DNA from: Candidatus Peribacteria bacterium | Lineage (GTDB): Bacteria; Patescibacteriota; Gracilibacteria; UBA1369; 2-02-FULL-48-14 | Assembly (NCBI GenBank): GCA_943349825.1 | Contig: CALQZQ010000001.1 | Coordinates: 124,001 to 188,000, forward strand | DNA: 64,000 bases | Direction: 5' to 3' | Part shown: positions 44,030 to 51,232 of the stretch, piece by piece | How positions within the stretch are numbered: position 1 is the stretch's first letter | How the letters are laid out: every line of letters starts with the position of its first letter | Made by a program: the position numbers and the translations under genes | The notes under the pieces: model-generated | Told to the model about the DNA's origin: nothing | The model's database searches: none | Seen by the model: only the letters and a program-made list of their open reading frames with translations

Positions 44030-44051
44030 AATGAGATTTAATAAATCACGT

Positions 44052-47000
44052 ATGGCAGACGATTCTATTGCTATCGTAGGTGGTGTCGAACTTCCCAAGA
44101 CTCAGGAAGCTGAAAAAGACTCCCCTGCTCCAGATGCGCGCCAAGCTCTTGAACAGCTTAAGGTTCAATTGGAACGCGAGAAGTTGACTGACGAGGAGCG
44201 TGAGCTTCGCCTGCAACAGATGATGGATAAGGTTTATGGGGAAAAAGCTTCAGCAGTGTTACGTCGTATAGAAACTTTGGATGAACCCACGGAAGAGGCT
44301 AAAAATCTTTTGAGAACGGGTACTAGCGTACTGATTACTGAGGCTCATTTTAAAGGCAAAGAAATCCATTCTGCTCAAGAGTTGATTGATCTGTACCGTG
44401 CTGATTCACATGCTTCTAATCAGGTTTTTGCTGAAACCCTGGTGCGTGTTTTGGCCAATGACACCTCCGAGCTCTCTCGTTGGTATAAACGTGAAGGTTG
44501 GGACGCTGCTATGGAAGAGGCTGTAGATTTTGAAGAAGCGGTTCGAGCGGCACAGGATACGATCCAAGAAAAAGAAGCTGCCGAGAAAAAAGAAGAAGAA
44601 AGTGGAGAAAAAGGCACGTATGATAAAACCAAAGATTTCTACAAAGACCACGAAAGTGATCTGAAAACGGCCGCAATGCTAGGTGTTGCTGGACTTGGAG
44701 CCTTTTGGCTCGTCCATAAGTTGTTTGAAAAAAAGGATGCCGGGAAAACTGAGGAAGAGAAGAGTGGCTTTGGTAGTAAAGTAGCCCTGACCGCTTTGAT
44801 TGGTGGGTTTGTCGGAGGTCAAGTGCTTGGCATGGAAAACGTTCAAGATTGGATCGCCCGTGGTGATCATGAGTCGTGGGTGTATAAGCCCTGGGCTCGT
44901 GGTTGGACTGAGCTTGTGGATTTGGAATTTGGCAACGCTGCCGATTATTGGACTGGCAATGGTCCCACTGAATCTGAGCGTTCTCAATTCGACACGCTGG
45001 CCGGAATCTTTAAGGTATCGGAAAGTGTACTTTGGGCCGATTCTAAACTCAGTTATGGTGATTTTATGGAAGGAAAGTCTGGTACGATCAACCCCTTTCA
45101 CAAGGCGGATGAAGATAAAATTCGTACTCAAATTAAGGATTACTATCAGGGTGATTTAGAACGCCGAATCCCTGAACTTAAGGACCCTGAGACAGCTAAA
45201 AAAGTGTCAATGAAGGAAGTGTTCATGAAAGGTCTTGCCTCCGGAGCTATTCGTGACAAAGATACGACTAAGCTCGATGAAGGTGACCGTAAAGACATTG
45301 ACGATCAATTTGATGAAGACCAAGCGAAGATCGAGGGCACTCGTAGGCTTTTAGATAAGCCTGAAGAAAACATGGATAAATTGGATGCCAAGGGTGATGA
45401 ATTATTGACCGATATTAGTGAATTGGACGGTAGTGTTGAGGATTATTGGGGGGAATACCGTGTTGCTTTTGAGGATGCGATGGGAGTTAACTTTTCCTTC
45501 GGTCACGATGACCCTGACAACTATAGGGATCTAAAAGCAGCCCGTGAAAAATTCGTGAAATTTTTTGACGACCATGCCAAATCGGATCATGCGTTTTTTG
45601 AAGAAAAGGAAGGCAGGGTTAAAGCCTTTAAAGTATTTTTGGCGAAGCATAAGGATGAAAAACCGTGGACGGATTCCACTAAAGAGGAATTCGAAGATTA
45701 TAAAAAGGAGATTTTGGATATTCAGGAGAAGATTTTGCGCTCCAAAGAATTAGCTAAGCAGGAGAATTTAACGAAGATGAAGGAAGATCTTTTGCACCGT
45801 ACTTCGGATGACGCAAGTGAGGGGCTCACCTTAGCGGTGATGACTTTGAGTGGAGCTTGGGATTACCTCGGCTTTCGTTTTGAGAAAGTTATGGAAGGTA
45901 GTGTCCCTTGGGTTGCACTTACGATTGCACAAGGAGCAGGTATCGCTTCCGAGTTTATTGGCCAGCCTGCTCCTAAAAGTGGCTGGGGGGTTGGTTACCG
46001 TATTGTGAAGGGGGCCACTTGGAATATTACTGGGAAACCCGGTTGGTATACTCTTAAGCTGAGTCGTGACGCCTTGCATGCCTTCCGTGCCTTTGAATAC
46101 GACGCGGAAGGGCTAACTGTGGAAATGTTGAAAGGTAAATTGACTACTCAACAAGTAGGTACACGTATTGGTTGGGCAGAGAAACTAAGCAGTTGGTATG
46201 AACTGAAGAATTTGCCGGCTCCCACCAGTGGCATTCAAGATTTTAAGTCTGGTCAGGTTCAGAAAATGAAAGAATTGTTGGAGGTTCGAGAGCGCATCGG
46301 TGATATTAGGGTGATGAATGAGTATGTGGACGGGAAGATTGACATTCGATCTGTGCCTGACCCAGTTCGGGCTTTGCTGCAAAGGATTCCTTCTGAAAAG
46401 ATTTCTGAAATCCGTGCTTATCGACTTTTGGCTCGTACGCAAACTGTGAGCGGCACTTTATTTGATGAAGTGTTGATGAAATTGAAAGATCCGAAAACAA
46501 CCATTTCTGCTGATGCTGAGGCGGCCTATAGAAAACTCGGTCTAAGTGAAGGCGAAGCCACCTTTATGAAGGACTATATGTCTAAGGAAGAAGGAAATGG
46601 CGTTCTTAGAGAATTTCAGAAAATCAAGAAGCCTACTCCGGAAGGATTTGAGTGGATCAAAGGTGAGGGAACCGGTGACGCTGCAAGTCACACTTATCGT
46701 TTTGGAAAAGCTGAAGTGGTACTTACTCATAAAGAAATTGCTGAGCGCGCCGCACAGTTGGCGACTCAAGAGAGGGCTGCTGGCAGAGTTCCTCCTGAGG
46801 GGGAAACGGCGGCTTGGCATGACTCCAACTGGGGTAAGGCAGCGCAACAACTTTGTGAAGAAAAGTTCACCGCTCCAGTGAAAGTTCGAGAGGGTGCATA
46901 CAAAGTGGCTGGACAAGAATTTGCCGTGAGCGATGCTGAGATTGCTGCAAAAATGGCCGCTGAGTCAGGCTTGACTGAAGAACAGGCGATTCGAAGACTG

Positions 47001-48224
47001 GCTATTGAAAAGGCGACCGCTTCTTTGAAGGTGGAAGGTGTAAAAACTGCTGGGGGTAAATATAAGTATAAAGTTAATGGGGAATGGTTGGAATTTGAAA
47101 AACCGATGAAGGCCTCTGAAGTGAAGGCAAAATTTCAGGAAAATTTGGGGTCAAAACTGGGAGATTTTGAGAAATTTGCGGCTCAAGCTAAAACTCTTAA
47201 ATATTTCGCCGCTTTTGAAAAAGTTTTAGGTACTGCAACGGCGGTATGGGTGATTTGGCATTTAGAAACAGCTACCGACAAACGCAAAGCTACCGCCGAA
47301 ATTGCATCATGTGTCGCTAGTTTTTACGCGGGTATGAAACTTACTGATTGGACGGTGGGGAAAAATCGTTCCCCTGTTCAGCGTTTGATTATTGATCTCT
47401 TGGGAGGTTTGGCTGCCGCTTACTTTGGTGCTGAGTCCATTGAGAAAATCGTCATGTCTTACTATAAGGATATTCCTGCCTCTTACGCAGTCAGTGGTGA
47501 AGTGGCTTCTCTCATGGAAAAGCACGCTACTCGAACTTTGGTGCTTGGTACTCTACGCAGTGCTGAAAGCGGACTCCTTCGTACCGGCATGGAAAAAATG
47601 GGAATGAAGGGCCTCACTGAACTTTTTGCGAAACGAGTCTCCTCTACTTTCTTGAAGCGAATTGCGGTGATTGCTGCTAAACAAGGATTCCGTGACATAC
47701 TGGCTTTCTTGGGTGTTCGTGGAGTTGCTGTCGGCCTTTTATTGGCCGATGACGCCACTGTAATTGGAGTTGCAGATGACATTATTGCCGCCGGCCTGTT
47801 GATTTGGATGGGGAAAGACATTATTGATATCCTCTTGTTGGTTGGGAATGCCAAAGAACTCCAGGATCAAATGGCGGAACGTCAGAAACATGAAATTGCT
47901 TCGTATGAAATTCGCCCTGCCGCCGCACGTGCCGAGTTCCAGGAAAAATTGATTCCGTATGGTTGCTCTATTGAAGACGCGCCTGAGAAGTTGGGTGAAG
48001 AAACCTTCTTTGATATTTTGAGAGGGATTGCTGATCTTAAACTAGTGATCGAGCGTGAGGAAACTTTAGGTCACGAAGAATGGACTCTCCACAATGGTGA
48101 GGCTGTGGGCATGGCAGTCTTTAATCAGGACGGCAGCGTCCTGTGTGAAATGAGCGATGAGGATGCAAAGGTCATGGATGAAAAATTAAGCGAACAAGCT
48201 CAGGAGCCTGAGCCTACCCGATGA
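44052..48224 (+). CDS. Giant membrane-associated protein of unknown function (about 1390 residues)
   Basis: Start at 44052 is preferred (MADDSIAIVGG) because the promoter lies at 44001-44029. Numbering here counts from 44031. Residues ~30-210 are charged and helical, then hydrophobic helices at ~211-230 and ~250-267. A long acidic helical region (~300-590) rich in Lys/Asp/Glu follows, then a hydrophobic patch near 620-640. At ~885-1035 there are three degenerate units of the form aromatic-x-F/V...EIA-x-x-A. The last third has about four more helices (~1055-1080, 1115-1145, 1205-1275). No signal peptide, enzyme motif or known family was recognised. Confidence 0.75.
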   Translation: MADDSIAIVGGVELPKTQEAEKDSPAPDARQALEQLKVQLEREKLTDEERELRLQQMMDKVYGEKASAVLRRIETLDEPTEEAKNLLRTGTSVLITEAHFKGKEIHSAQELIDLYRADSHASNQVFAETLVRVLANDTSELSRWYKREGWDAAMEEAVDFEEAVRAAQDTIQEKEAAEKKEEESGEKGTYDKTKDFYKDHESDLKTAAMLGVAGLGAFWLVHKLFEKKDAGKTEEEKSGFGSKVALTALIGGFVGGQVLGMENVQDWIARGDHESWVYKPWARGWTELVDLEFGNAADYWTGNGPTESERSQFDTLAGIFKVSESVLWADSKLSYGDFMEGKSGTINPFHKADEDKIRTQIKDYYQGDLERRIPELKDPETAKKVSMKEVFMKGLASGAIRDKDTTKLDEGDRKDIDDQFDEDQAKIEGTRRLLDKPEENMDKLDAKGDELLTDISELDGSVEDYWGEYRVAFEDAMGVNFSFGHDDPDNYRDLKAAREKFVKFFDDHAKSDHAFFEEKEGRVKAFKVFLAKHKDEKPWTDSTKEEFEDYKKEILDIQEKILRSKELAKQENLTKMKEDLLHRTSDDASEGLTLAVMTLSGAWDYLGFRFEKVMEGSVPWVALTIAQGAGIASEFIGQPAPKSGWGVGYRIVKGATWNITGKPGWYTLKLSRDALHAFRAFEYDAEGLTVEMLKGKLTTQQVGTRIGWAEKLSSWYELKNLPAPTSGIQDFKSGQVQKMKELLEVRERIGDIRVMNEYVDGKIDIRSVPDPVRALLQRIPSEKISEIRAYRLLARTQTVSGTLFDEVLMKLKDPKTTISADAEAAYRKLGLSEGEATFMKDYMSKEEGNGVLREFQKIKKPTPEGFEWIKGEGTGDAASHTYRFGKAEVVLTHKEIAERAAQLATQERAAGRVPPEGETAAWHDSNWGKAAQQLCEEKFTAPVKVREGAYKVAGQEFAVSDAEIAAKMAAESGLTEEQAIRRLAIEKATASLKVEGVKTAGGKYKYKVNGEWLEFEKPMKASEVKAKFQENLGSKLGDFEKFAAQAKTLKYFAAFEKVLGTATAVWVIWHLETATDKRKATAEIASCVASFYAGMKLTDWTVGKNRSPVQRLIIDLLGGLAAAYFGAESIEKIVMSYYKDIPASYAVSGEVASLMEKHATRTLVLGTLRSAESGLLRTGMEKMGMKGLTELFAKRVSSTFLKRIAVIAAKQGFRDILAFLGVRGVAVGLLLADDATVIGVADDIIAAGLLIWMGKDIIDILLLVGNAKELQDQMAERQKHEIASYEIRPAAARAEFQEKLIPYGCSIEDAPEKLGEETFFDILRGIADLKLVIEREETLGHEEWTLHNGEAVGMAVFNQDGSVLCEMSDEDAKVMDEKLSEQAQEPEPTR

Positions 48225-49806
48225 GCTTCGTCATATAAGTCCCCTCGAGCTCATAGCCCCACTTGCGGTAGTAATTGCGAGTGCCCACTCCGGCGATGAC
48301 GGCGACTTTTTTGAAGCTGGCGGCGCGGGAGATTTCTTCGGCTTTTTCGAGCATGCGGCGGCCGAGGCCCACGTGTTGGGAAGCGGATTTGCGGGACTCG
48401 CCCACTTCCACTTCGGCGCCGTAGACGTGGACTTCGCGCACGAGTGCGGCGCCCTCGAGTTCGGGAATGAAATGTTTTTTGCCTTGCAGGGAGTAGGAGC
48501 TGAAGCGGAGGCGCAGGAGGGAGAGTAGCTTGTCGCGCGCTTCATCTTCAAAGTGGATGAAGAATTCTTTGCCCTCACCCGCTTCGTATTCGTCGACTTT
48601 GAGCGTGGCGGATGCGGCTTCATAAATGCCGTCTTTGATTTCTCGGCAGCGGATGCAGCGGCAGGTTTTCCCGTCGATCACCATCTGTTCTTCCACGAGT
48701 TGGCGCATGTTGGTTTTTTGTGAACCTTCGAGGATCGATTCGCCGGGGATGTCGCGGAAGAGGCGTTCCACGCGCACGTACTCGGGAATGAGCAGCTGCA
48801 TTTTGGTGAGCAGTTCCATGAGTACTTCGTCGCTGTAGGCTTTGTAACGACCTTCCTTCCACCATTGTTCAAGCTCCGCGTAAGGCGTGACGACGCAAGG
48901 ATAAATTTTGACTTGGTCGGGACGGAAATTGGGGTTTTCAAAAAATTCTTTCACGACCCAGAGGTCCATTTCTGGCGTTGAGCCGGGAAGATTGGGCATG
49001 AGGTGGGTCGCGATTTTGAGCCCTGCGTCGCGCATGAGCTTCATGGCATGAACCGTGTCTTCGATGCGCTCGCCGCGCTGGTTGAGGTCGAGCACGCCTT
49101 GATCGATGTGCTGAACTCCGATTTGGACTTTGGTGGTGCCGAGGCGCAGCATGCGTTTTATTTCTTTTTCGGTGATGTGGTCGGGGCGAGTTTCGAGGCT
49201 CAGGCCAATGATCTTGTGCTTGGCGGATTCGTTGATGACTTGGGCTTCGCGGAGGGAGCGGCCGGGCTTGTCGTTACAAGCGTTGAAGAGAGCGCGTATG
49301 AAGTCCGTTTGGTAGCGTGGGTTGTAAGCGGAAAAAGTTCCGCCGAGTACGATCATTTCGATTTTGTCGGTTTCGTGGCCCTGACGCGTGAGGCTGTCGA
49401 GGCGGGTTTTCACTTGGTCGCGCGGATGGAAATCGTCCAGCACCGCACGCATGGCGCCGGGCTCGTTGGAAAGATAGGACTTGGGCATGCCGGGTTCGGT
49501 GGGACAAAATACACACTTCCCCGGACACGGGTAGGGTTTGGTGAGCACCGTGATGATGGTGACGCCGGAAAGAGTGCGGATTTTTCGTTTGCGAATGAGA
49601 CGTTGCAAAGTGCGATTTTCTGGCCAACCTTCGGCGATCATTTTTTCGTAGGTTTCTTGGAGTTTAAAATTGGTCGGCAGTTGTACGCCGAAATCACGAG
49701 CATAATGCTTTTTGAGTTTGTGCAGCTCTTCTTCGTCTTTGAGCTTGAGTTCCGATGCTTGTTTTAGGAGGCCTTTCAGGTTATCCTCCTCGGTAAGAAT
49801 TTTCAT
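48214..49806 (-). CDS. elp3: Elp3-type tRNA wobble-uridine modification enzyme (radical SAM + GNAT)
   Basis: 530 residues, full length for a bacterial Elp3. N-terminal tRNA-binding helices with Arg/Lys clusters (RTLQRLIRKRKIRTLSG), radical-SAM cysteines Cys94-x3-Cys98-x2-Cys101 (PCPGKCVFC), the YLSNEPGAMRA loop, and a C-terminal GNAT domain with QHVGLGRRMLEKAEE and NYYRKWGYELEGTYM. Elp3 joins an acetyl-CoA-derived carboxymethyl group to U34 of tRNAs (cm5U). The other Elongator subunits are not seen, as is usual in bacteria. Its ATG is 5 bp from the ATG of the Trm9-like gene on the other strand. The 3' end overlaps the giant gene by 11 bp. Confidence 0.95.
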   Translation of the reverse strand: MKILTEEDNLKGLLKQASELKLKDEEELHKLKKHYARDFGVQLPTNFKLQETYEKMIAEGWPENRTLQRLIRKRKIRTLSGVTIITVLTKPYPCPGKCVFCPTEPGMPKSYLSNEPGAMRAVLDDFHPRDQVKTRLDSLTRQGHETDKIEMIVLGGTFSAYNPRYQTDFIRALFNACNDKPGRSLREAQVINESAKHKIIGLSLETRPDHITEKEIKRMLRLGTTKVQIGVQHIDQGVLDLNQRGERIEDTVHAMKLMRDAGLKIATHLMPNLPGSTPEMDLWVVKEFFENPNFRPDQVKIYPCVVTPYAELEQWWKEGRYKAYSDEVLMELLTKMQLLIPEYVRVERLFRDIPGESILEGSQKTNMRQLVEEQMVIDGKTCRCIRCREIKDGIYEAASATLKVDEYEAGEGKEFFIHFEDEARDKLLSLLRLRFSSYSLQGKKHFIPELEGAALVREVHVYGAEVEVGESRKSASQHVGLGRRMLEKAEEISRAASFKKVAVIAGVGTRNYYRKWGYELEGTYMTKLIG

Positions 49807-49811
49807 ACTTT

Positions 49812-50453
49812 ATGCACTCTAAGCGACTTCGAGAAAAGGTCAAGCAGGACTACAATGACATTGCGGAAGAGTTTTCCAAAACTCGAGCCCATGACTGGAA
49901 CGAATTTGATATTTTTCTCTCTTATTTGACCCCTCAAATGAGGGTTTTGGATCTGGGCTGTGGGAATGCACGCCTGCTCAACTTTTTAGATGGCTGGAGG
50001 ATGGATTATACCGGTTTTGATCAGTCTGAGGGTTTGATCCATTTGGCTCGAAAGAAACATCAGGGGCAGCGATTGGAGATTCATGATATGGCTGAACTTC
50101 CGGATTTGGATGAAAAATGGGACGCTGTTTTTATAATTGCGTCCTTTCATCACTTGCCACCGCAGGATCAGAAAAAAACGCTGGACTGGATTCGTGATCA
50201 TTTGGAGCCGGATGGGGTTTTACTCATGACGAATTGGAATTTGTTTCAATGGCGATTTTGGAAGGCCTGGCTCAAGAATTTGTTCTGGCCCAAGTGGGGT
50301 TTTAAAGGATTGGAGATTCCTTGGAACCATGGTGTGAAACGCTATTATTATGCCTTTAGTCCTCGGGAGTTGCGCGGACTTTTACACGCCGCCGGTTTTG
50401 AAGTTTTGGAGGAGAAAAATGGTCGAAATTTTGTTACTATAGCGCGCGTATGA
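49812..50453 (+). CDS. Trm9/ALKBH8-like SAM methyltransferase, likely partner of Elp3
   Basis: 213 residues, class I methyltransferase fold: VLDLGCGNARLL (45-56), acidic loop FDQSEGL (69-75), FHHLP (112-116). It shares with eukaryotic Trm9 the order Y-x-D/E-IA-x-x-FS-x-TR (14-25) plus Trp29, DxGCGN, a G-x-D-x-S-x-GLI segment and a RYYY-type motif near the C-terminus (177-182) before a final strand. Trm9 methylates cm5U34 to mcm5U34, the step after Elp3. The gene lies head to head with elp3 with a 5-bp gap. I infer the same function; a different small-molecule or tRNA methyltransferase cannot be excluded. It overlaps the next gene by 4 bp (ATGA). Confidence 0.75.
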   Translation: MHSKRLREKVKQDYNDIAEEFSKTRAHDWNEFDIFLSYLTPQMRVLDLGCGNARLLNFLDGWRMDYTGFDQSEGLIHLARKKHQGQRLEIHDMAELPDLDEKWDAVFIIASFHHLPPQDQKKTLDWIRDHLEPDGVLLMTNWNLFQWRFWKAWLKNLFWPKWGFKGLEIPWNHGVKRYYYAFSPRELRGLLHAAGFEVLEEKNGRNFVTIARV

Positions 50454-51232
50454 AGCTTTTTGGAGTGACCATTGACGAAATTCGCCGCGAAGATGCCTTG
50501 CTTCGGCTCGAAAAATCTCAGGTGATTTTTACACCGAATCCGGAGATTTTATTGGAGGCGCGTAGGAATCGTGTTTTTCAACGAGCCCTTTCCGCTGGAA
50601 CCTTGATGCTACCGGATGGACACGGCTTGCAGTTTGTTTCGACCTTATTGCAGGTTCGCTCCGTTTGGCTTCGGGCCATTTTGTACTTCCCCGCTTTGCT
50701 TTTATTTTTGATTTGGAAAGGGCCGTTCACGAAAGTTTTTCCGGAAGTGATTCATGGCAGTGATTTTATGGACGACGTGGTGCACTTTGCAGCGACGCGC
50801 GGCTATTCCGTCTTCTTCTTGGGTGGAAAAAATAGTGCCCAAGGAACGGCGGATTATTTTGTGAAAAAATATCCACGGCTCAAGGTGGCTGGAGTGTCTT
50901 CCCAGGATCCGTCTGAGGAAGCTTTGGAGGCGGTAAAACAAGCTCGGACGCAGGTGCTTTTTGTGGCTTATGGAGCTCCGAAACAGGAACTCTGGATCTC
51001 TAAATATGCCAAGCAGATTTCTGGCTTAAAGCACGTGATGGCGGTGGGTGGCAGTTTTGATTTTTATTCGGGAAAAGTGAAAAGATCGCCAAAGGTTTTG
51101 CGCGCTGTGGGCTTGGAATGGCTCTGGAGACTTTGCATGAATCCTTGGCAAAGAATCCGACGCATTTGTAATGCGGTGGTGGTGTTCCCTATTATTTCTT
51201 TCGGCTCATCTTCTCTTGAGCGCCGGAAATGA
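50450..51232 (+). CDS. WecG/TagA/CpsF family glycosyltransferase
   Basis: 260 residues. Family marks: VIFTPNPEILLEARRNRVF, LMLPDGHGLQFVSTLL, VFFLGGKNSAQGTADYF and VLFVAYGAPKQELWI. Members add N-acetylmannosamine or related sugars to lipid-linked intermediates of teichoic acid, enterobacterial common antigen or capsule. A hydrophobic stretch around 65-90 may dock it to the membrane. Coupled to the Trm9-like gene by ATGA, and its end overlaps the convergent small membrane gene by 41 bp. Confidence 0.92.
   Translation: MKLFGVTIDEIRREDALLRLEKSQVIFTPNPEILLEARRNRVFQRALSAGTLMLPDGHGLQFVSTLLQVRSVWLRAILYFPALLLFLIWKGPFTKVFPEVIHGSDFMDDVVHFAATRGYSVFFLGGKNSAQGTADYFVKKYPRLKVAGVSSQDPSEEALEAVKQARTQVLFVAYGAPKQELWISKYAKQISGLKHVMAVGGSFDFYSGKVKRSPKVLRAVGLEWLWRLCMNPWQRIRRICNAVVVFPIISFGSSSLERRK

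Follow-up and report, generated by a model that had tools for sequence, protein, structure and literature searches.

The tRNA nucleoside mcm5U34 is regarded as a eukaryotic (perhaps archaeal) mark, and the eukaryotic route to it consists of Elongator, with its six subunits, and Trm9-Trm112. The product of Elp3 is cm5U, from which mcm5U is made by Trm9 (PMC6367351, PMC3110198), and yeast Trm9 depends on Trm112 in vivo (PMC3110198). According to a 2017 review, bacterial genes similar to Trm112-dependent methyltransferases were not detected (PMC5372719), and the Elp3 of Dehalococcoides mccartyi (DmcElp3) has been described as a rare bacterial example of this protein (PMC6367351). In archaea, the clustering of Elp3 with Trm9 was first noted in Sulfolobus solfataricus (PMC2584109), and it has been given merely as a lead, with HVO_1032 in Haloferax (PMC5372719). 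The MnmE-MnmG(-MnmC) route likewise modifies C5 of U34 and has a methyl transfer (by MnmC) as its last step, but it uses other enzymes and leads to another product (cmnm5/mnm5U).

The locus described here lies in a 64,000-nucleotide stretch of DNA from a Candidatus Peribacteria bacterium, which we call the window. As the preliminary description had reported, an elp3 gene (48214..49806, minus strand, 530 aa) and the gene of a Trm9-like class I SAM methyltransferase (49812..50453, plus strand, 213 aa) stand head to head, with the 5 bp at 49807..49811 between the two ATGs. Elp3 comprises a radical SAM and an acetyltransferase (KAT) domain, and its predicted function, based on TIGR01211, PDB matches and motifs, is the C5-carboxymethylation of tRNA U34. 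It matched TIGR01211 with 546.6 bits over residues 19-528 (the curated cut-off of this model is 350 bits), and its best solved relatives in the PDB were MinElp3 and DmcElp3, with E values down to 9e-124 over nearly the full length. The radical SAM Cx3Cx2C motif (CPGKCVFC, residues 94-101) and the acetyl-CoA-binding QHxGxG motif of the KAT domain (QHVGLG at 477) are intact, and each of them is kept in 106 of 107 relatives. At its other end elp3 meets a convergent ORF of 1397 aa (44031-48224 of the window) with zero Pfam matches, which overlaps the elp3 stop by 11 bp.

In the pathway that we propose, Elp3 would make cm5U34 from U34 in selected tRNAs with the help of acetyl-CoA, SAM and its [4Fe-4S] cluster, and the methyltransferase, whose predicted role draws on Pfam, PDB, AlphaFold/Foldseek and a reverse Trm9 query, would carry out the SAM-dependent methyl-esterification of the carboxylate, turning cm5U34 into mcm5U34 (mcm5s2U34 where thiolated). 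This second step would proceed as with yeast Trm9-Trm112, minus the Trm112 partner, and the two proteins would together replace the MnmE/MnmG route, which is absent in the lineage.

The preliminary description had staked its reading on the pairing being kept in relatives, and kept it is. The window's order is represented by 89 genomes. Both genes are present in 78 of them, of which 73 carry the two divergently on one contig and the remaining 5 on separate contigs; 10 genomes have neither gene, and in one Elp3 lies at a contig edge with no methyltransferase. We also analysed an evenly drawn sample of 145 Patescibacteria, in which the methyltransferase was called at 100 bits or more. DmcElp3 likewise belongs to the Elp3 family and stands without other Elongator subunits, but here Elp3 was present in 57 of the 145 genomes, mostly together with a dedicated methyltransferase. 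The latter was found in 37 genomes of the sample, 37 of the 57 Elp3-positive versus none of the 88 Elp3-negative ones (Fisher 2.7e-20, a value for which kinship among the genomes inflates independence), so the co-occurrence across CPR genomes proposed as a check was borne out, with the methyltransferase occurring only where Elp3 was present. The two genes were divergent neighbours in 32 of the 37 methyltransferase-bearing genomes, and about one third of the Elp3-bearing Patescibacteria in this sample lacked the methyltransferase.

A scan of GTDB contigs that used the methyltransferase alignment alone as query, and in which Elp3 played no part, gave 80 loci, almost all of them on contigs with titles such as Peregrinibacteria, Gracilibacteria, Parcubacteria-type or other Patescibacteria. 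Elp3 lay within the fetched DNA in 69 of them, mostly divergent and less than 400 bp away, and 12 of 14 genomes checked, a set made up mainly of non-adjacent cases, encode Elp3. Two contigs titled Ignavibacteriales and Lysobacteraceae (L079 and L134) bear a typical Patescibacteria pair and are probably mis-binned. In Patescibacteria the methyltransferase forms a conserved family, and Elp3 is its constant partner. Since the divergent pair is kept across order and phylum, and since many of the motif residues that had been named for the methyltransferase vary little or not at all in its orthologues, the observation goes beyond chance. In the literature we found nothing relevant on Elp3 in CPR/Patescibacteria.

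As to the 5-bp divergent start, the head-to-head arrangement proved to be conserved, but its exact length did not: most start-to-start distances elsewhere were 0-330 bp, and with spacer length varying among loci we dropped the idea of a conserved 5-bp spacer. A CATG palindrome is common to both start codons in 18 of 62 divergent loci (L076, L079, L086, L087, L093-L095, L104, L119 and L125 among the loci of this type), and in some others the codons stand back to back as CATATG. Where start codons overlap or abut in this way, any promoter or leader must therefore lie inside the opposite gene.

Every motif named for the methyltransferase in the preliminary description was found: YNDIAEEFSKTR at residues 14-25, DLGCGN at 47-52, GFDQSEGLI at 68-76, HH at 113-114 and RYYY at 177-180, many of their residues showing little or no variation among 31 orthologues. 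Also conserved in these 31 are W142, IPW (169-171) and RYY (177-179), with the window's protein having Y180 where Trm9 has H. The Pfam matches were Methyltransf_23/25/11, and since the matches to curated NCBIfam models were weak and below threshold, databases would label the protein a generic methyltransferase. Its nearest characterised relative is Trm9. The structure of Trm9 from Yarrowia (5cm2) was the top PDB match for the single sequence (E 5.5e-9), for the order-level profile (96 bits, the next match having 66), for the phylum-level profile (113 bits, the next 90) and, narrowly, for the archaeal profile (74 versus 73), and with the order and phylum profiles the alignment extended through the C-terminal W-x-L-x-Q / (V/I)PW / RYY region. 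The AlphaFold model of the protein (pLDDT 96) also had 5cm2 as its first Foldseek match.

When the search was reversed, with the 5cm2 sequence as query, the Elp3-linked proteins had median scores of 47-53 bits and a maximum of 78, and the nearest generic methyltransferases at most 28 bits. Across the whole genomes of the 145-genome sample, all 30 matches to Trm9 of at least 33.9 bits were members of the Elp3-linked methyltransferase family, and in the window's genome the methyltransferase was the sole match. With 5cm2 at the top of the forward searches and the reverse query singling the family out, similarity gave no sign of the grouping with small-molecule methyltransferases that had been named as the danger to this reading. 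Compared with Trm9-Trm112 and ALKBH8 (5cm2), the family has in common the DxGCGN, HH, W-x-L-x-Q, (V/I)PW and RYY(H/Y) motifs and Elp3 as partner; it differs in that identity is about 26-35% and in that the gene is bacterial and head to head with elp3.

The phylogenetic comparison with Trm9 that had been suggested gave a divided answer. In the tree, bacterial, archaeal and eukaryotic sequences stood together against generic methyltransferases (SH-aLRT 94), but an AU test that included one truncated, long-branch eukaryotic sequence did not reject a position of Trm9 outside the Elp3-linked clade (p 0.64). With a C-terminal-only profile Trm9 reached 26 bits, level with two generic CPR methyltransferases, and the archaeal homologues were clearly separated. 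Because of these two results and the absence of Trm112, we call the protein Trm9-like rather than Trm9, a name that the sequence comparisons largely support and that stops short of Trm9 ortholog.

These data bear on an explanation in which the target is indeed the Elp3 product, or the same anticodon loop, but the final nucleoside is a different one, for instance through methylation of another atom in a cm5U derivative, or as some Elp3-dependent mark that is not mcm5U. Linkage and strict co-occurrence show merely an Elp3-dependent function, and Trm9 orthology is not proven by the tree. In addition, VIA-align gave METTL6 (tRNA m3C32) as the nearest match over the whole fold and also placed small-molecule methyltransferases above Trm9; this method ranks many class I methyltransferases about equally, and the fold was set aside as evidence for Trm9. 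We nevertheless regard a different final nucleoside as unlikely, since Trm9 is the best match both by sequence and by Foldseek, the reverse query picks out this family, and the Trm9-type PW..RYY(H/Y) motif is shared.

Trm112 (PF03966) was absent from 88 of the 89 order genomes, the window's genome among them, and was found in one. Since yeast Trm9 needs this partner, the bacterial methyltransferase would have to act alone. MnmE and MnmG, whose presence or absence had been suggested as a check, exceeded their curated cut-offs in none of the 89 order genomes, the window's genome included, while bacterial controls were positive. The candidate for MnmE in the window's genome was rejected, as it consisted merely of short GTPase-domain matches below the cut-off, which fit a two-GTPase-domain (Der-type) protein. 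In the phylum sample MnmG occurred in 5 of 145 genomes, none of them with Elp3, a disjoint distribution that with 5 genomes is not significant (p 0.16), and mutual exclusion of MnmG and Elp3 was not retained. MnmG is missing in most Patescibacteria, with or without Elp3, and since most Elp3-less genomes also lack it, the Elp3-methyltransferase pair is no specific explanation for the loss of MnmG.

The linkage extends to archaea. In a Thermoproteota MAG (L137) the methyltransferase overlaps the start of Elp3, and strong homologues were present in 16 of the 29 genomes of its Thermoproteota group. In 9 of the 15 best archaeal loci Elp3 lies immediately downstream on the same strand, and most of the archaeal homologues bear W-A-L-F-Q, PW and RYYHLF. 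The archaeal cluster resembles the locus described here in that a Trm9-like methyltransferase adjoins Elp3 without other Elongator subunits, but its genes are co-directional, whereas those of the Patescibacteria are divergent, often with start-codon bases in common. Because gene orientation differs between bacteria and archaea, the linkage appears to be functional and not only inherited.

A different target for the methyltransferase is suggested by its downstream neighbour in the window, a WecG/TagA/CpsF-family glycosyltransferase (50450..51232, plus strand; PF03808, 146 bits), whose start overlaps the methyltransferase stop (ATGA) and which is probably co-transcribed with it. This gene adjoins the methyltransferase in most of the order loci examined, and a fusion is found in Peregrinibacterium L084 (L084:5001-6521, one 507-aa ORF), as would be expected if the methyltransferase belonged to an envelope-polysaccharide operon and modified a sugar or lipid carrier, with Elp3 as an accidental neighbour. 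We consider this improbable, since the glycosyltransferase was present in 16 of the 80 scan loci compared with 69 for Elp3, since zero Elp3-less genomes of the phylum sample had the methyltransferase, and since in archaea it is Elp3 to which the homologues are joined. With the glycosyltransferase linkage mostly confined to one order, we rejected a glycan methyltransferase as the main reading; the glycosyltransferase is probably an order-specific neighbour and not a member of the pathway. There are many class I methyltransferases with protein substrates, and with genetic linkage alone known the target could be a protein such as Elp3 or a translation factor, or the methyltransferase could moonlight as a regulator of Elp3, but this is very hard to credit, given that the characterised protein closest to it methylates tRNA and that the motif match takes in the Trm9-type C-terminal region.

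The wobble-uridine pathway of Elp3 and a Trm9-like enzyme, put forward in the preliminary description, is thus supported by linkage, co-occurrence and similarity to Trm9; what is inferred is the chemistry of the two steps, the choice of tRNAs and the independence from Trm112. Judged from sequence, it is likely that the two proteins make mcm5U34 (or mcm5s2U34) by a minimal, Trm112-free route of two genes.

Two further kinds of neighbourhood were observed. At two loci with no adjacent Elp3, the gene after the methyltransferase encodes a NifS/IscS-like cysteine desulfurase (L120:5639-6694 and L149:5706-6755), which is possibly tied to 2-thiolation of the same uridine. In a Magasanikbacterium (L118:4968-6092) the methyltransferase ORF runs on into a NUDIX-like domain, with an RNA pyrophosphohydrolase-type match.

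Beside Elp3 in 5 of the 19 Elp3-positive, methyltransferase-less genomes we found a stand-alone asparagine-synthase (PF00733) synthetase domain without a glutaminase domain (L252:957-1805, L253:3834-4265, L256:1239-2024, L264:1810-2610 and L267:4210-5031). The five genomes represent four families, and the orientation of the domain to Elp3 is either divergent or co-directional. Among solved structures the domain is closest to the synthetase halves of asparagine synthetases, and it occurred in none of the 69 methyltransferase loci with Elp3 (p 3e-4, in a post hoc comparison). Asparagine synthase amidates a carboxylate, and the conversion of cm5U to ncm5U is a reaction of the same type. The enzyme that forms ncm5U has been described as unknown (PMC6367351), and we found no literature linking ncm5U with asparagine synthase. 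As a hypothesis from gene context only, we put the stand-alone domain forward as a candidate for the enzyme that amidates cm5U to ncm5U, and it would make the question of ncm5U formation directly testable. Because an enzyme of the carboxylate-amidating type adjoins Elp3 in some genomes that lack the methyltransferase, there seems to be a slot beside Elp3 for an enzyme that finishes the cm5U carboxylate. We suggest tentatively, as an idea somewhat short of an even chance, that Patescibacteria and some archaea have an ancient, minimal, Trm112-free Elp3 module whose neighbour finishes the cm5U34 carboxylate, the methyltransferase giving mcm5U in most of them and the asparagine-synthase-type protein ncm5U in others.

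Many of the Patescibacteria, which are tiny and uncultured, thus probably form a tRNA mark of the eukaryotic kind, one that was not thought to be bacterial. If this is true, much of a major bacterial radiation would decode split codon boxes with eukaryote-type chemistry, and two proteins would do the job of Elongator and Trm9-Trm112. The pair would then also offer a simple system for Elp3 and Trm9 chemistry and would bear on the question of where the eukaryotic pathway came from.
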